DNA of 43,004 nucleotides from a virus. Made by a program: the position numbers and the translations under genes. Below the pieces are notes generated by a model that ran no database searches, was not told where the DNA came from, and saw nothing but the letters and a program-made list of their open reading frames with translations. The stretch lies in the IMG/VR virus record IMGVR_UViG_3300010158_000132, positions 1 to 43,004 of that record; one strand, 5' to 3'. Each line of letters starts with the position of its first letter. Positions within the stretch are counted from its first letter, which is position 1. Positions 4,562 to 43,004 of the stretch are shown piece after piece.

Positions 4562-4577
4562 GTTGTATTTCTACAAC
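4562..4577 (-). terminator. GTTGT...ACAAC hairpin over the glycosyltransferase stop
   Basis: Six-bp stem GTTGTA/TACAAC with a four-base loop (GAAA on the minus strand). The gene's stop codon lies in one arm. Very similar 16-nt hairpins lie at the end of clpP (17498-17513) and after the gene ending at 35924. No U-run follows. Confidence 0.45.
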
Positions 4578-5635
4578 AAACTGTGTTTTTTGAGGATTTC
4601 CAGGGATTTTATAGCAGAATTAGCCCAAGAGTACTTGGTGCGTATTAATTCGCTATTTTTCATGGCCTGTGCTGATAATGCTGGATAATTATCGTAGGCC
4701 TGTTTGATTGCTTGAGCTATATTATCCGTACTCGTTACTGCCCATTTACCATAATTATTATCTGGCGCAGGATAAAATGATTGATATTCTTTACAGTCGA
4801 TTGGTTCTAATTGATAATCAATTAATACACAACTTGATTTAATATCTTTAATAAACTCTGTTTGTCCTGAATAATATGTAGTAATTAATGGTAATCCACA
4901 AGCTGCAGCTTCTATTAATGGTAATCCCCAACCTTCTGCTTTGGTTGGGAATAAGAATATATCAGCACTTCTATATAATTCAGCTATTTGATTAATAGTT
5001 TGATAACCCCATATTAATCGAATATTATCGACTTGGGTACTGGCTATTTTATTATCTAATTCTATTTTCTTTAATTCAGGATCTTTAAAAAAATCTGATT
5101 TAATTATTAATTCAACATTGGGATTATTACCAAATACTCGAGCAAAAGCGTCAATACTTTCGTCCATTGATTTACGCTGTTCATATTTGCCAATTAATAA
5201 GAATCTAAATCGATCTTTTTGAGGTTTTAAATAAGGATGAAATTGATTATTATCTACTCCTTCTGGAATTACTTCAATTTGATTTAAATCTACACCATTT
5301 TCAACACATATTTTACGACCCCATTCTGTGGGAATCCATATATTATGTTGTTTAATTACTGATAATAGACTTTCGGGAATACGAGTAGATTCAAATACTG
5401 CCCAATTAATATTATATCCACGATAATAATCATTTAAATTAGCCGGGACTAATGATATATTAATATCATCCGCGGTGCTTTCATTAGCTGATTTAACGAT
5501 AGCCTCTTGATCCTGAAAATTAACTAATTCAATGTAAGGCTCTAGGCCATTAATTTGTTTTAATGCTTGAGTATAATTTTGGAAATGGGTGCCTATGCCA
5601 CTATCATTGGCTTGGCCTATAAGTCTAATCTTCAT
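4571..5635 (-). CDS. GT4-family glycosyltransferase
   Basis: 354 residues, the usual length for a GT-B glycosyltransferase. The N-terminus has MKIRLIGQANDSGIGTHFQN, a G-rich first loop. The C-terminal donor-binding half has the EX7E motif in FPTKAEGWGLPLIEAAACGLP (near residue 235-255) and GKYEQRKSMD near 150. It should transfer a sugar from a nucleotide donor. The acceptor could be modified phage DNA, a virion protein or host surface glycan. No signal peptide, so it acts in the cytoplasm. It lies 9 nt from the next upstream gene. Confidence 0.82.
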   Translation of the reverse strand: MKIRLIGQANDSGIGTHFQNYTQALKQINGLEPYIELVNFQDQEAIVKSANESTADDINISLVPANLNDYYRGYNINWAVFESTRIPESLLSVIKQHNIWIPTEWGRKICVENGVDLNQIEVIPEGVDNNQFHPYLKPQKDRFRFLLIGKYEQRKSMDESIDAFARVFGNNPNVELIIKSDFFKDPELKKIELDNKIASTQVDNIRLIWGYQTINQIAELYRSADIFLFPTKAEGWGLPLIEAAACGLPLITTYYSGQTEFIKDIKSSCVLIDYQLEPIDCKEYQSFYPAPDNNYGKWAVTSTDNIAQAIKQAYDNYPALSAQAMKNSELIRTKYSWANSAIKSLEILKKHSLL

Positions 5636-17497: not shown

Positions 17498-17513
17498 GTT
17501 GTTTTTATACAAC
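17498..17513 (-). terminator. GTTGT...ACAAC hairpin over the clpP stop codon
   Basis: GTTGT/ACAAC stem with a six-base loop holding part of the stop codon. It lies three bases from the next promoter's -35 box. Confidence 0.4.
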
Positions 17514-18110
17514 GGCTTCTGATCTGTTGGTGATTATGCGATCCGCTAGCCCATAGTCCACAGCTTCTTGGGCACTCATAAAGTTATCCCGTTCCATGTC
17601 GTTGGTCAGCTCTTCAAAGGTCTTGCCCCTGGTATTGTGCTTGACATAAATTTCAGTCAAATACTTTTTCATCTTTAATATCTCTTGAGCTTGGATTTGG
17701 ATATCCGTTGCTTGCCCACGAGCACCACCAGAGGGTTGATGTATCATATGACGGGCATTGGGCAGGATTAATCGCTTGCCCGCTGCTCCTGCTTGTGCTA
17801 GACAACTACCCATGGAGCAAGCCTGTCCCATGACGATGGTACTTACATCACACTTGATAAAGTTCATAGTATCATAGATAGCCATACCAGCAGTTACTAC
17901 ACCACCTGGACTATTAATATAGAAAAGGATATCTGTGTCTGGATCTTCAGCTTCTAGAAATAGCATCTGGGCTACTACCAAACTAGAAGAGTGTTCGTTG
18001 ACATCTGTGTCCAACATGACAATACGATCCTTTAACAGTCTACTATAAATGTCGTAACTGCGTTCGCCCTTGGCTGTTTGCTCCACAACCATTGGAATTA
18101 AACTTGGCAT
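17505..18110 (-). CDS. clpP: ClpP serine protease subunit
   Basis: 201 residues, the usual ClpP length. The catalytic triad is complete: S99 in GQACSMG, H124 in MIHQPSGG, D175 in [15 protein letters not shown] (67-70) and YGLAD near the end also match. ClpP forms a 14-mer chamber that degrades unfolded protein fed by ClpX or ClpA. It has its own promoter and lies next to a second ClpP-like gene. A phage ClpX is encoded 10 kb away. It may be used for prohead maturation, host takeover or proteolysis of specific proteins; that use is inference. Confidence 0.92.
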
Positions 18111-35128: not shown

Positions 35129-35331
35129 CCGGGTACTGTAACCTGTTTAACTGTAATAGTTGTAGGGGCTCCTAGCTTGACTTCTTTGGCCGGTTTACAT
35201 TCAGCTTTCATACTGGTAAATTTTTCTTGGTAATATGCTTGTTTTGCCAAACAATTATCTTGTACCAAGTAAACCGAATGTACGGTAAAATTTGTGGGAT
35301 TAGTAGCCCAAAATATTAATGCCCATTTCAT
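35125..35331 (-). CDS. 68-aa small protein
   Basis: MKWALIFWATNPTNFTVHSV, then VQDNCLAKQAYYQEKFTSMK and a second Cys (ECKPAKE). The start overlaps the lysozyme stop (ATGA). The pattern (strand, Cys, Lys-rich helix, Cys) recalls small secreted or periplasmic-type phage proteins, but there is no clear signal peptide. Confidence 0.56.
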   Translation of the reverse strand: MKWALIFWATNPTNFTVHSVYLVQDNCLAKQAYYQEKFTSMKAECKPAKEVKLGAPTTITVKQVTVPG

Positions 35332-35855
35332 ATATAAACTCCTGAGTTTTTAGCACGGTTATAAAATAAATGTCGACCAATGGTTAGAACATATTCGGTA
35401 GTGTCAACCCAATAGGGTTGTTTGATATAATCTGCGTGATAATATAAACTGTTGGCTACGCCTCGAACTCTGGCACCTTTTAAAACTTCTATAGCAATAG
35501 CTTTAGATTCTTCCCATACATCTTTATTTGGTGTAGGCAATTTAGCTTTTAGAGTCCAACTAAATTGTTTTTTAGCGTAGACTACTTTACATACATCATT
35601 GCCCCAGTATCCAGATTTTACACGATTAAGGGTTACATGAGCTACGGCATATTTGCCAGTACGATTTTCTACTCCAGCTTCGTAGTAAATATTTTTTGTT
35701 AAACATTCAACATCTTTAGGTGTATGTTTAACTACGAACTTAGTTTGAATTACATCGTCTAATTTGTCTTCTATCTTATCCATGCGTATTTCAGCTCGAA
35801 GTAGGATTAACCCAAGAAGTATGCAAGCTATGATAGTTAGAGTTTTATTTGACAT
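35328..35855 (-). CDS. SleB-type cell wall hydrolase with N-terminal anchor
   Basis: 175 residues. Residues 6-20 are a hydrophobic anchor (LTIIACILLGLILL), so it can be exported by Sec (signal-arrest-release style). The catalytic SleB/Hydrolase_2 core is LTKNIYYEAGVEN (E59 is the probable acid), GKYAVAHVTLNRV and VVYAKKQFSWTLK. It cleaves peptidoglycan and is the likely endolysin. Its ATG is 6 nt after the -10 box of the promoter at 35862-35890, so the mRNA may be leaderless. Confidence 0.85.
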   Translation of the reverse strand: MSNKTLTIIACILLGLILLRAEIRMDKIEDKLDDVIQTKFVVKHTPKDVECLTKNIYYEAGVENRTGKYAVAHVTLNRVKSGYWGNDVCKVVYAKKQFSWTLKAKLPTPNKDVWEESKAIAIEVLKGARVRGVANSLYYHADYIKQPYWVDTTEYVLTIGRHLFYNRAKNSGVYI

Positions 35856-37843: not shown

Positions 37844-38125
37844 TTAACTTCCTCCTACATTAGGACTGCCTTGAATGCGGCTATGACCACATGTGTCAAC
37901 ATCTCCTACAAATATTATTCGTTTACCTTGGACTGTAATAGTTTGTTCGGAGGCCACACAATGAGCATGGTCGTGCTGGACAGCACCTTTAGGGTGCGGA
38001 TGCGGAGTTACTGGCGATCCTTCTACAGCAACGTCTAGCCCGTTCAGTCGTACAGTAGAGTCGCCGGATATTACTTTTCCGCCGCCACTATTTATATCGC
38101 CCACACGAACTATTTGTCTGCCCAT
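37844..38125 (-). CDS. PAAR-domain tail-tip protein
   Basis: 93 residues with paired PAAR-type repeats: RVGDINSGGGKVISGD then VRLNGLDVAVEGSPV, and HDHAHCVASEQTITVQGKRI then FVGDVDTCGHSRIQGS. The His and Cys residues bind a metal at the tip cone. PAAR proteins cap the spike (as T4 gp5.4 does) and help pierce the envelope. Confidence 0.88.
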   Translation of the reverse strand: MGRQIVRVGDINSGGGKVISGDSTVRLNGLDVAVEGSPVTPHPHPKGAVQHDHAHCVASEQTITVQGKRIIFVGDVDTCGHSRIQGSPNVGGS

Positions 38126-38430: not shown

Positions 38431-38655
38431 TTATCCTTGGAAATGTTTGCGAAGTTCTGTAAACCCGCCAATATAGTTATCGTCCAAGAAGATCTGTGGT
38501 AAAGTTCTTGCGGCAGGAACCGCTTCTAACAACTGCTCTTTTGTCCAATCTTCTTGAACATTGCGTTCTTCGAATTCAATACCTTTTGATTCTAGTAATG
38601 CTTTTGCTTGAACGCAAAAAGGGCAGGCGTTTTTTGACCATACAATGGCTTTCAT
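38431..38655 (-). CDS. Glutaredoxin
   Basis: 74 residues. Active site CPFC at 11-14, the cis-Pro loop TLPQIF and GGFTELRKHF match the family. It supplies electrons to ribonucleotide reductase, which is coded next to it. The start at 38655 is chosen for its ribosome site (AAGGAGAATAAT); the longer frame is in the nrdB tail. Confidence 0.92.
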   Translation of the reverse strand: MKAIVWSKNACPFCVQAKALLESKGIEFEERNVQEDWTKEQLLEAVPAARTLPQIFLDDNYIGGFTELRKHFQG

Positions 38656-38671
38656 ATTATTCTCCTTATTA

Positions 38672-39772
38672 TTATAAATTTGGTAACTGGTCGTAATCCA
38701 GCACATCACTCATCACACCAATAACATAGTTAGTCGATTCTGATTCTTGGAGTGCTGTTTGTTTATTACTTACATTGACATGTTTATTAAACCATGGAAT
38801 AGGCGTTGTCTTAGGAGCAGGAGACTGATATTTAATACCAATTTCTTTAAGAGCACCAACGGCTGTGTAGTCAACAAAATCTTTAAGTATTGCCGCATTA
38901 AGACCAATCACTGGACCTTTTTGGAATAGATAATCAGCCCATTGTTTTTCTTCCCGTATGACATCTAAGTACATAGCATATACTTCTTGCTCACACTCTA
39001 CTTTAGCTTGTGCAAATCGAGGATCCTCTTTGACTACTTGATTGATTAGCCAAGCTGTCCAATCCTTATGTAGTATTTCATCCTGTAAAATTAAACTAAT
39101 AATATTGCCGTTACCAATAAAGATGCGATTCTCAACCATGGCTAAACTTGTAGCAAATGATACCATAAAGCGGAAAGCTTCTAATCCATAACTGGCATTG
39201 AGTGCTAGCCAAATAGCATTGATATGTTCTTGCTCATCAACCTTTCCTAATAATTCTTTTCGACAATTGGTCATATGTAATCTATCATAATATTTTCCAA
39301 TCGAAGAAGCCATACCAACAATTTCTTGTGTATCATGGATAGTATTAAAAATGTCTTTAGGTACATTATAGATGTTGCGTATAATATGGCTATAACTACG
39401 ACTGTGTATATTTGTTTCAAAGAATCCCCAGTTATACATTAGTGCTTCTAGTTCGGGTATAGACACTACAGGTGTAAATACCTGTGTTGGACCGCGACCT
39501 TGTAAACTATCAAGAGCAGTTTGTCTAAGCAAATTACTGGTAAAGATATGTCGTACCGTATCACTAGATTCTTTAAAATCGTTAGCATCTTTGGTTAGCG
39601 AAATTTCCTCGGGCACCCAAAAGAATCCGCGGGCTTCTTGTTCAAATTTTACAATTTTATTGTATTTGACTTCTTCAAATCGTTGGATAGTTACAGGCCC
39701 TGCTGGGTCCAAGAACATCTTACGATTAAGATAATCTGTTTTAGTTGTTAGGTTGTATTGTTGTTGGCTCAT
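38672..39772 (-). CDS. nrdB: Ribonucleotide reductase class Ia beta subunit
   Basis: 366 residues. The diiron and radical site: D88 in ALDSLQGR, E119 and H123 in FFETNIHSRSY with Y127 as the radical Tyr, a further E in ASYGLEAFRF, and the DEILH pair further on. It reduces NDPs to dNDPs with NrdA. In E. coli the ExxH spacing is ETIH; here it is ETNIH, one residue longer. It is separated from nrdA by four genes, which is unusual. It overlaps the 89-aa gene upstream by 32 nt. Confidence 0.93.
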   Translation of the reverse strand: MSQQQYNLTTKTDYLNRKMFLDPAGPVTIQRFEEVKYNKIVKFEQEARGFFWVPEEISLTKDANDFKESSDTVRHIFTSNLLRQTALDSLQGRGPTQVFTPVVSIPELEALMYNWGFFETNIHSRSYSHIIRNIYNVPKDIFNTIHDTQEIVGMASSIGKYYDRLHMTNCRKELLGKVDEQEHINAIWLALNASYGLEAFRFMVSFATSLAMVENRIFIGNGNIISLILQDEILHKDWTAWLINQVVKEDPRFAQAKVECEQEVYAMYLDVIREEKQWADYLFQKGPVIGLNAAILKDFVDYTAVGALKEIGIKYQSPAPKTTPIPWFNKHVNVSNKQTALQESESTNYVIGVMSDVLDYDQLPNL

Positions 39773-40010
39773 CGTCTTCTTTAAATTCTATTACTAATCC
39801 TTCTTCTTCGTCAATATACGCTGACTCAAAATTCTCATCTTGTAATGAGGCTAGTATTATTTCTTTTGCTTCGTCTTCAATATAAAAATCTGGATTAAGA
39901 TTTCTTATTATCAACCACTCTCTTAAATGTTGATCTAAACTTTTAAGAACTTGTCCTTCGTTAGTAACAAATTCTATATCAGTTATATCTTCCTTTGAGG
40001 ATATTTTCAT
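39741..40010 (-). CDS. 89-aa acidic hypothetical protein
   Basis: MKISSKEDITDIEFVTNEGQ with a strongly acidic tail (DEEEGLVIEFKEDDEP). The start overlaps the YHYH gene's stop (ATGA). Function unknown. Confidence 0.6.
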   Translation of the reverse strand: MKISSKEDITDIEFVTNEGQVLKSLDQHLREWLIIRNLNPDFYIEDEAKEIILASLQDENFESAYIDEEEGLVIEFKEDDEPTTIQPNN

Positions 40011-41086
40011 TGGAATGATCCAATCGGAATCGCAATAATACCTTTTGGCCCGTGATTCTCGTGTCCATTCTTGCTTGGTACTCCATGAGGTTTTTTGTGT
40101 GCGTTCATGTCGGCCGACCCCAGGGCTTGATCATAGTTGACTTCGCCTCTAAAACAACCAATGGCATATGGAAATTCACGGTTCAAGTGATAGTGATAGA
40201 TATTCTGCATCTTGCCATCCCACTGTACTGGATGGGTGTGTCCATGACATTCGTCCAGTTGAGCATTGGTAACCATTTTGCTGTCATCGCCTCTGGGACC
40301 ATAGACACCAAATCCGTCTAGAGCATAGCCAAACAAGGGTGAGTGGCCTTCGGTTCCTTGGTTGGGAAAACACTTCCAGCTATAACCATGTAAGTGATAT
40401 TGTTGAGCATAAGGATGTCCCCAGCATTGGTCAATTGGCAAGATTGAAGCAGGTGGATACCATGCTGTGGCACTGGCGTTGGCAATCTCAGCGTGCCATA
40501 CTGTGCCAGTAAGTGTAACGCCAATTGGCAATGCGGCTATGGGATTAGGCGTAGCACTTAGCTTGGGAATTTTAGGTAGTTGAATATTCAACTCATAAGG
40601 GCTGATACCAATTGCCGCGGCACTTGAATAATCATGACCAGGAATACCTGTTCTAAAATCATGTCCGCCTGGAGCTTCTTGATAAAACTTGTAGGCAGGA
40701 GTGCCAGGTTGTACAGGAAAGTCGCCCATTGCGGTGTTGGGTAATCCATTACCTACAAAATAACGATACCGACTATCTTCGGTAATAGCAAACACACTAC
40801 CTTCTTTTGCGTAATCTTTAGCATATTTGGTACCGCTTACAAATGGCATCTTTGCGATAACAACGGTGTTGTTTGAAGTATCCATCCACGGTTGGGTGCT
40901 TAGTTCAAATCGTGTATTGCCGGGAACTGCCGCAAGAAAATCTGCTGCCATGAATAGTCCGTTACGATGAGCTTGATAAGGGCTTATGGTCCCCGAGCTT
41001 AACAAAGTTGTTGGCGCATCTTCTGCTCGAGCACCACTTATTACTGTGATACCGAGTATCATTACTGCTAATATATTTTTAATCAT
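40007..41086 (-). CDS. Exported YHYH-domain protein
   Basis: 359 residues with signal peptide (MIKNILAVMILGITVISGARA, cleavage near 22). The YHYH domain is clear in the C-terminal half: YALDGFGVYGPRGDD, LDECHGHTHPVQWDG, IYHYHLNREFPYAIGCFRG. Earlier there is also QYHLHGYSWKCF. The many His and Cys suggest metal binding. YHYH proteins are secreted, of uncertain function, and usually bacterial, so this is likely acquired cargo. It lies between nrdB and nrdA and shares a leader (TTAAAGGAAAATAAA) with the next gene. Confidence 0.88.
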   Translation of the reverse strand: MIKNILAVMILGITVISGARAEDAPTTLLSSGTISPYQAHRNGLFMAADFLAAVPGNTRFELSTQPWMDTSNNTVVIAKMPFVSGTKYAKDYAKEGSVFAITEDSRYRYFVGNGLPNTAMGDFPVQPGTPAYKFYQEAPGGHDFRTGIPGHDYSSAAAIGISPYELNIQLPKIPKLSATPNPIAALPIGVTLTGTVWHAEIANASATAWYPPASILPIDQCWGHPYAQQYHLHGYSWKCFPNQGTEGHSPLFGYALDGFGVYGPRGDDSKMVTNAQLDECHGHTHPVQWDGKMQNIYHYHLNREFPYAIGCFRGEVNYDQALGSADMNAHKKPHGVPSKNGHENHGPKGIIAIPIGSFQ

Positions 41087-41103
41087 TTTATTTTCCTTTA
41101 ATT

Positions 41104-41469
41104 TTATTTTGCGGTCGGCATCTCTATGGTAAGATTGATTATTATTTTTGTTGGTGCGTTGCCGTTGTTTCCATTACCGCCAATGCTGACAGTATTACTG
41201 GTATTACCGTACGAGCCTTGTAGATTGGTGTTACCATACGAGCCCTTGATATCGGTATTACCGTATGATCCTTGTAGATCAGTATTACCATAGGATCCTT
41301 TGATATCAGTATTGCCATACGAACCTTGTAGATCAGTATTGCCATACGAGCCCCGGAGGCTAGTATTGCCATTATCTTTTACAGCGGCCTTACCGTTGTT
41401 TTGTGTAGACTGTGCAAATCCAAATGCTGGGATTAAAAAAGCCAGCACAATAAGTAATTTGAATTTCAT
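41104..41469 (-). CDS. Exported nonapeptide-repeat protein
   Basis: 121 residues with a signal peptide (MKFKLLIVLAFLIPAFGFA, cleavage near 19). Residues 40-90 are perfect-register repeats of nine: GSYGNTDLQ, GSYGNTDIK, alternating, about 5.7 copies. After these comes a Gly/Asn stretch and a hydrophobic tail (KIIINLTIEMPTAK). The alternating L/I and Q/K suggest a beta-solenoid or amyloid-like surface. It could be an adhesive or ice- or surface-binding protein. I know no family for this exact repeat. Confidence 0.78.
   Translation of the reverse strand: MKFKLLIVLAFLIPAFGFAQSTQNNGKAAVKDNGNTSLRGSYGNTDLQGSYGNTDIKGSYGNTDLQGSYGNTDIKGSYGNTNLQGSYGNTSNTVSIGGNGNNGNAPTKIIINLTIEMPTAK
41200..41352 (-). 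repeat. 27-nt coding tandem repeat
   Basis: Coding repeats of GSYGNT(D/N)(L/I)(Q/K), nine residues each, codons varied between copies, so the protein repeat is selected rather than a recent DNA slip. Confidence 0.8.
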
Positions 41470-41480
41470 TTTATTTTCCT

Positions 41481-42092
41481 TTAATTACCTGGTGGGTTTT
41501 GTATCGGTAAACTTACAGGGTACTGACTACAAGCATCTGGATTACCTTGCCCAGCTTCGGTTAAGAATGTAGTAGCGGCGGCCACTTGTCCTGTAGGGCA
41601 TGAACATATAGCTATACCATCGGCACCGATCTTACAATTCCAACTGAAACAGTTACTGGCTTTGTCACCTAGATTCAAACTTGCATCACATTTTTGAACT
41701 GTGGCTTTCATGTCTTTTGGCTTGTTACTAAAGTTACTAGCTTCCTGTGGATAGTATAACTTAGGAGCAAATAAACTCCATACATGTTGACTATCTGTTG
41801 GCGTACAACTACCTGCCATGTTACCAGCTTTGGTATCAGCAATAGCACGACCTTCGAGAATAGGGCAACGACATTCTACCTCGGGATAAGGAGTGCCATT
41901 ATTACCAGTAATCATCTTGCCTGTAACCTTACAAGTTGATGCGGCGCATAGGGCATACTTACCATCACATACTGTTAATCCAGATGTAGACTTTGATTGT
42001 GCTTTATCGGAAATACTAAATTTTGTATATAAGGCGTATGCTGCTAGCGCCAATACTACTACCCCAACTAATACTAATAATATTTTTTTCAT
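41481..42092 (-). CDS. Exported or membrane-anchored Cys-rich protein
   Basis: 203 residues. N-terminal anchor/signal (MKKILLVLVGVVVLALAAYA). The ectodomain has about 12 Cys, e.g. CDGKYALCAASTCKVTG, VECRCPILEG, NCFSWNCK and CSCPTGQ, spaced like a disulfide-rich secreted domain. The WSLFAPKLYYPQE and TEAGQGNPDACSQYPVS strings are distinctive. It lies next to the repeat and YHYH genes and could act with them at the cell surface. Family unknown to me. Confidence 0.65.
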   Translation of the reverse strand: MKKILLVLVGVVVLALAAYALYTKFSISDKAQSKSTSGLTVCDGKYALCAASTCKVTGKMITGNNGTPYPEVECRCPILEGRAIADTKAGNMAGSCTPTDSQHVWSLFAPKLYYPQEASNFSNKPKDMKATVQKCDASLNLGDKASNCFSWNCKIGADGIAICSCPTGQVAAATTFLTEAGQGNPDACSQYPVSLPIQNPPGN

Positions 42093-42101
42093 TTTTTCTT
42101 T

Positions 42102-43004
42102 CTATAATTTACAAGCTTCACAATCTTCTTGATCGTCAAAATCTATCACTTCTAATTTTTCTTCTACTTCGTCTTGACCTTTACTACCTTGTTTGTTGAT
42201 CAAACTATAGTAGAAAGTTTTTAATCCCCACCTATGTGCTGACATTAAATTTTTAGCAATTAATGTAGTTGGTACTTTTCTATCTGGAAAGTGAGCAGGA
42301 TTATAGAAAGTGTTAGTTGAGATACTCTGGTCTACATAAGCGGCTAATACACTGGCAGTCTTAAGATAACCATCGCAATCCTTCTGTTCCCACATCAATT
42401 GATATTTATTCTTTAATTTATTATACTCGGGCGCTACTTGAATTAAACTTCCTGCTTTACTTTCTTTAACAGTAATTAAACTCATTGGCAATTCAATTCC
42501 ATTTGTACTATTAATAACAACACTACTTGATTCTACTGGGGCTACAGCCATTAATGTCCCATTGCGTACTCCGTACTCTTTCATATTGACACGAAGGGTT
42601 TCCCAGTCGAGTTCAGGAGTAAAATCAGCTAACTCGTTGACTGCCTTGGCACGAAGTTCCCAAGGGAATGTACCTTGCCCATAGCGTGTTTTATCTGAAT
42701 GTAAGCAAGGACCGCGTTCTTTAGCAAGTTCCACTGTGGCTTCTGTTAAGTAGTAGGCTTGATGTTCCATCCAAGATTTAACTTCAGCAAGAGCATCTTT
42801 CTCGCCATACTTCAAACTACGTTTGGCATGCCAGTAGGCTAAGTTAGTGATGCCAATGCCTAAGGGCTGTATTTCATCATTGCTTAACTGTGACTGAATG
42901 GAAAGAAAATCTTGGTAGTCCAAAATATTACACAGGCTACGCTGGAGTATACGACAAGCACGCCGCATGTCTTCTGGATTACGGAAAGCTCCCCAATTGA
43001 TGGA
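42102..43004 (-). CDS. nrdA: Ribonucleotide reductase class Ia alpha subunit, 3' part
   Basis: The frame is open to the right edge (codons before 42968 read SINWGAFRNPED), so it is partial. The visible 301 residues match the NrdA C-terminal barrel: INSTNGIELPMSLITVKESK, DQSISTNTFYNP, KTFYYS (the radical-pathway tyrosines) and the C-terminal CEACKL, whose two Cys relay electrons from glutaredoxin. It forms the class Ia enzyme with NrdB. Confidence 0.93.
   Translation of the reverse strand, partial: SINWGAFRNPEDMRRACRILQRSLCNILDYQDFLSIQSQLSNDEIQPLGIGITNLAYWHAKRSLKYGEKDALAEVKSWMEHQAYYLTEATVELAKERGPCLHSDKTRYGQGTFPWELRAKAVNELADFTPELDWETLRVNMKEYGVRNGTLMAVAPVESSSVVINSTNGIELPMSLITVKESKAGSLIQVAPEYNKLKNKYQLMWEQKDCDGYLKTASVLAAYVDQSISTNTFYNPAHFPDRKVPTTLIAKNLMSAHRWGLKTFYYSLINKQGSKGQDEVEEKLEVIDFDDQEDCEACKL

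Follow-up and report, generated by a model that had tools for sequence, protein, structure and literature searches.

Genes for exported proteins in an exchangeable cargo slot between nrdA and nrdB of an uncultured aquatic phage lineage

Why would a phage carry genes for exported proteins between the two subunits of its ribonucleotide reductase (RNR)? The question is raised by IMGVR_UViG_3300010158_000132, a complete IMG/VR entry 43,004 bases long that is referred to here as the window. A first-pass annotation described three exported proteins, a YHYH protein, a nonapeptide-repeat protein and a Cys-rich protein, as inserted between nrdA and nrdB. All three are found there, each with an export sequence, and a fourth insert, an 89-aa ORF, had been overlooked.

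Tail, spike and lysis genes in the RNR operon

Matches to Pfam and PHROGs confirm both RNR subunits. On the minus strand, the genes run in the order nrdA, Cys-rich protein, nonapeptide-repeat protein, YHYH protein, 89-aa ORF, nrdB, glutaredoxin, a 100-114-aa ORF, PAAR protein, two ORFs and endolysin:

42102..43004, minus strand: nrdA, C-terminal 300 aa, cut by the window end (PF02867, phrog_84); left wall of the slot
41481..42092, minus strand: Cys-rich exported protein, 203 aa, with an N-terminal membrane anchor (ORF; alignment of relatives; dN/dS)
41104..41469, minus strand: exported nonapeptide-repeat protein, 121 aa (ORF; unit-wise length variation; dN/dS)
40007..41086, minus strand: YHYH protein, 359 aa, with a Sec leader (PF14240, E=2e-15; conserved His, Asp and Cys; dN/dS)
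39741..40010, minus strand: 89-aa ORF without a leader, the fourth insert, overlapping the YHYH stop and the nrdB start
38672..39772, minus strand: nrdB (PF00268, phrog_86), which divides the slot into two parts
38431..38676, minus strand: glutaredoxin (PF00462), right wall of the slot
37844..38125, minus strand: PAAR protein, a spike tip (PF05488), in the operon shared with nrdA-nrdB
35328..35855, minus strand: endolysin, 175 aa, with an N-terminal signal anchor (phrog_938, E=1e-23; PF07486, Cell Wall Hydrolase)

A 69-kb twin record (locus L088) carries the identical operon at 100% identity and gives nrdA its full length of 772 aa. In front of nrdA, in the same orientation, it contains genes that by sequence are IscU- and IscA-like, a 237-aa ORF and a tail-spike-like gene; the IscU- and IscA-like genes are preceded by a gene for an exported His/Tyr-rich protein of 94 aa (L088:558-1533). 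The slot thus has a late, lysis-type setting, with the tail-spike-like gene upstream and PAAR and the secreted endolysin downstream, the latter about 6 kb downstream of the Cys protein on the same strand. Since the RNR genes of the window share a mixed operon with genes for tail, spike and lysis functions, surface-type cargo at this place is less odd than the earlier annotation held. Elsewhere, the window encodes a glycosyltransferase (4571-5635) and a ClpP-like head maturation protease (17505-18110). The 89-aa ORF recurs in two other loci (L014 and L043), with dN/dS of 0.18-0.29.

Co-transcription of the inserts with nrdA and nrdB, as the first reading had it, is probable from the layout: consecutive genes are separated by gaps of 9, 11 and 17 nt, downstream genes overlap, and promoter- or terminator-like sites between the cargo genes show no excess, their counts equalling those in shuffled sequence. 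Two copies of a T4-type late promoter motif in the operon both fall within genes and are uninformative. The idea that the three genes share leaders holds for the repeat and YHYH genes, which have about 20 nt around the ribosome site in common (AATTAAAGGAAAATAAAATGA); it does not extend to the Cys gene or to the amino-acid leaders, which are mutually unrelated. A shared regulatory leader was ruled out, as the similarity consists of the ribosome site and the end of nrdA, with no conserved element.

An exchangeable slot bounded by nrdA, nrdB and glutaredoxin

To describe the site independently of its contents, loci were collected with nrdB as the sole bait, ignoring cargo; 80 were fetched, of which 55 were distinct with both walls present. 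Inserts of at least 300 nt occupy the nrdA-nrdB junction in 27 of these 55 (49%) and the nrdB-glutaredoxin junction in 26 of 69. For five other operon junctions, which are seen in fewer loci where the flanking genes are less conserved than nrdB, the corresponding counts are 0/25, 0/27, 0/54, 1/53 and 1/20 (0-5%), and the grx-p114 junction is intermediate (8/65). The slot is empty in 12 of the 55 loci, and the others contain between them 39 cargo families in 37 arrangements, although ORFs were called by a simple length rule and a few short families may be spurious. Among slot ORFs of at least 100 aa, 80 of 84 are oriented with the operon.

Cargo that could be named with Pfam comprises isocitrate lyase, class II aldolase, class V and class IV aminotransferases, FAD oxidoreductase, fatty acid desaturase, TctC receptor, radical SAM, NifU_N, Fe-S_biosyn, thioredoxin, HD domain, AMP-binding enzyme, Fic and PGDYG. 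The isocitrate lyase family gene is found in the slots of eight loci (L005, L009, L094, L096, L101, L105, L124 and L125; Pfam-confirmed for the L005 copy). As much of the cargo besides the three proteins consists of cytoplasmic metabolic enzymes, the slot as such is not export-specific. At the nrdB-glutaredoxin junction of L132 and L145 lies an opposite-strand ORF whose start looks GIY-YIG-like by eye, a possible homing endonuclease; these ORFs gave no Pfam match at E<=0.001.

Among cultured phages, Xanthomonas phage X1 comes nearest in nrdB (62%), and its site is free of cargo. On an nrdB tree of 77 loci, the distribution of the three genes requires a minimum of 14 presence changes for YHYH, 6 for Cys and 3 for the repeat protein, counts that are indicative because they come from single-gene trees with limited support. 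The stretch from nrdA through nrdB to glutaredoxin is an exchangeable cargo slot in this uncultured aquatic phage lineage, and its cargo is exchanged independently.

The exported proteins and what they may do

Are the three proteins really exported? A strongly hydrophobic N-terminal stretch, the feature from which leaders were judged in place of a dedicated signal-peptide predictor, is present in 32 of 32 YHYH, 40 of 40 Cys and 5 of 5 repeat proteins, and strongly indicates export, presumably by the Sec route. In the window, the leaders of the YHYH and repeat proteins resemble the cleavable Sec type, and the Cys protein has a membrane anchor with no obvious cleavage site; its relatives elsewhere have cleavable leaders. 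YHYH copies carry at least three Sec leader types and two lipoprotein types, which show no homology to one another, and every full-length copy has a Sec or a lipoprotein leader. The lipoprotein leader of the L015 copy is similar to that of a 299-aa lipoprotein from the RNR slot, and the leader of the L011 copy is similar to those of the Cys proteins of L010 and L013. That leaders have changed and export has been retained argues that export matters. All three proteins are under purifying selection, with dN/dS of 0.03-0.15 overall among relatives in other contigs (Cys 0.03-0.08, repeat 0.03-0.06, YHYH 0.08-0.15).

The Cys-protein family is common in uncultured phages, with 46 contigs (L042-L087), and absent from 50,697 cultured-phage records. 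Twelve cysteines are invariant in an alignment of 32 relatives, which suggests a disulfide-locked exported protein. An AlphaFold model (pLDDT 70) had no match in the PDB at E<=0.001 and, among viral models, matched two uncharacterised proteins, from an uncultured Caudovirales phage and, as a distant structural match, from Marseillevirus LCMAC101. In three other phage groups, Cys genes adjoin spanins or holins, namely an LysC-type o-spanin and GTA_holin_3TM in L053, GTA_holin_3TM in L057 and its relatives, and Rz/Rz1 spanins in L075. It is possible, if somewhat doubtful, that the Cys protein assists lysis together with the PF07486 endolysin of the same operon, and that YHYH perhaps does so too; YHYH directly follows a holin-like ORF in L037. 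However, lysis neighbours account for only about 3 of 7 non-RNR contexts of Cys genes, the others being structural, replication or uncharacterised; a bacterial chromosome encodes a distant exported relative; and chance neighbourhood is not negligible in small phage genomes. We regard the Cys protein more broadly as a putative disulfide-locked accessory of lysis or of the envelope.

The YHYH protein belongs to its family by a PF14240 match of 57.6 bits against a cut-off of 25 (E=2e-15), although the match is split and low-scoring compared with the 164-226 bits of full-length bacterial matches. The window protein reads YHYH at 297-300, and H198, H224, H231, H233, H281, D219, D257, D278 and Y297 H298 Y299 are kept in at least 97% of 47 homologues, as are four cysteines. 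Sequence searches of the PDB gave no match, an AlphaFold model from the phage alignment reached a pLDDT of 32, and no YHYH protein was found in cultured phages. Phage YHYH proteins form one group with L037 apart, and a single phage clade is not rejected (AU p=0.32); within the tree, the four genomic locations of the gene interleave, with at least six location changes. Bacterial relatives at 40-62% identity occur in cultured Polynucleobacter, other Pseudomonadota, mycobacteria, methylotrophs and cyanobacteria.

In the Pseudomonadota clade near the phage proteins, made up of Polynucleobacter and five further loci, all six loci have the order YHYH, RCC1, multicopper oxidase (L175, L181-L184 and L192, of which two are nearly identical), and a seventh genome (L194/L254) has it too. 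This bacterial operon encodes a YHYH lipoprotein, an RCC1-repeat protein and a Tat-type multicopper oxidase, in several cases with a TetR-like gene nearby; we found no mention of YHYH together with a multicopper oxidase in the literature searched. In mycobacteria, a beta-propeller (NHL/YncE-like) protein directly precedes YHYH in 7 of 7 loci (L173-L174 and L176-L180), and in L174 YHYH is followed by CtaG.

One reading of these associations is that YHYH handles copper or another metal in the host periplasm during infection, a role presumably shared by the bacterial relatives encoded beside the multicopper oxidase. The oxidase operons, the CtaG neighbour and the candidate metal site conserved across 47 sequences all point this way. 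Nevertheless, we consider this reading unlikely on the whole, since neither an oxidase nor a beta-propeller partner is present in any slot of the set among the cargo identified, and the published prediction for YHYH in jumbo phages is of a Zn-dependent, tail-associated hydrolase, not a copper protein (PMC7824862). The earlier suggestion that the inserted cargo may bind metals has gained, for YHYH, a plausible link from the conserved His/Asp set, that Zn prediction and the bacterial oxidase operon. We would describe YHYH as a putative metal-dependent exported protein, probably of bacterial origin.

Could the YHYH and repeat proteins instead be virion parts, of the tail or baseplate, that serve in host recognition? 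Besides the jumbo-phage prediction, YHYH domains have been reported in pelagimyophage structural operons (PMC7029224), and the operon of the window contains PAAR and a tail-spike-like gene. In L172, the nrdA-nrdB slot holds a holin-like gene followed by a large LamG/PA14 protein (L172:2232-5445), and in the slot of L037 a similar large ORF comes after the holin-like ORF and YHYH (L037:5681-9765). The repeat protein has weak, low-complexity matches to tail-fibre PHROGs. Virion proteins are assembled in the cytoplasm, normally without a Sec or lipoprotein leader; the universal leaders of full-length YHYH copies, together with the free-standing form of the 359-aa window protein, in which Pfam and PHROGs found YHYH alone and no fused tail, baseplate or lectin domain, make a virion role quite improbable. 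The repeat protein, with a period of 9 aa (GSYGNTDLQ/GSYGNTDIK), differs among relatives by whole 27- or 54-bp units, as expected of in-frame expansion and contraction, and had one weak, probably chance match in 250 Burkholderiaceae genomes; it may form a solenoid or linker at the surface or in the periplasm.

The first-pass annotation saw in the three genes a single exported module. This fails on their scattered presence: among 78 distinct RNR loci, 1 has all three genes, that of the virus represented by the window and its twin, and co-occurrence is at chance for YHYH and Cys (odds ratio 0.9, p=1), p=0.05 for Cys and repeat, and p=0.29 for YHYH and repeat. Each gene occurs alone (repeat in L169, Cys in L044 and L051, YHYH in L027-L029) or accompanied by different cargo, and for YHYH and Cys there are also copies well away from RNR. 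YHYH itself has a strong link to the slot: of its 40 viral loci, 30 are at RNR, 6 are beside a clamp-loader-like gene, 3 follow a long ORF and 1 is a fragment. That the three were gained and retained as a unit, as a functional module that remodels the surface or captures metal, is thus very improbable, even though all are exported, adjacent and under selection in the window virus, Cys and YHYH are also adjacent in L010 and L013, and YHYH directly follows the repeat gene in L003 and L041. Most likely, the three genes were acquired independently. No result pointed to the attachment to environmental particles that the first-pass annotation also suggested.

A cargo-slot model and its relation to known systems

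How, then, did three such genes come to lie within an RNR operon? We think it fairly probable that the site is a cargo slot in which the window virus has gathered three independently acquired exported accessories, which are expressed by read-through and function in the host envelope during infection. Promoterless genes, each with its own ribosome site, would be fitted between core genes and expressed from the nrdA transcript. By an inferred route, co-infecting phages would swap cargo through recombination within the nrdA and nrdB walls, which are well conserved, and the window virus would hold three exported-protein cassettes obtained in this way. Their products may act near lysis, alongside the lysis and tail products of the operon. 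A more specific version, in which the RNR pair is a standing expression site for exchangeable cargo and YHYH is a free exported metal-dependent enzyme of the envelope with a bacterial counterpart beside a multicopper oxidase, is one that we put forward as a long shot; if true, it would be the first handle on the role of YHYH proteins.

Insertion sites for phage accessory genes are usually described for tail-fibre regions. The empty, single and stacked states of the slot in close relatives allow cargo exchange to be studied directly, and searching for the nrdA, nrdB and glutaredoxin walls is a simple way to find new metabolic genes, and new genes for exported proteins, in phages. A testable lead on YHYH function comes from the bacterial YHYH-RCC1-multicopper oxidase operon.

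Part of this arrangement was already known. In T4-like phages, the nrdA-nrdB gap houses mobE and related genes for homing endonucleases (PMC2988022), and class Ia RNR genes of sequenced phages may be separated by uncharacterised genes (PMC3653736). The slot shares with the mobE system the site, a promoterless insert on the nrdA transcript (in our case a presumed one) and tight nrdA junctions; the window inserts lie in the nrdA/nrdB gap with spacings of 9-17 nt and no promoter excess. It differs in that its cargo runs to several genes and encodes exported proteins and metabolic enzymes, and the window inserts had no homing endonuclease match in Pfam or PHROGs. Relative to the earlier description of split RNR genes (PMC3653736), the inserts are here identified, counted and compared with neighbouring junctions, and their exchange is demonstrated; what is new is the slot cargo, the way it is stacked and exchanged, and the lead offered by the bacterial YHYH operon. 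The hypervariable regions of cyanophages and pelagimyophages also place accessory genes at fixed positions in T4-like genomes (PMC7029224), but in the structural region around the tail fibres, whereas the slot lies inside the RNR gene pair; likewise, pelagimyophage YHYH is found in structural operons, and slot YHYH is free-standing and exported. With the jumbo-phage prediction (PMC7824862), the window protein has in common PF14240, the YHYH motif and the conserved His and Asp; it departs from that case in its Sec leader and in a nearest bacterial operon that includes a multicopper oxidase.
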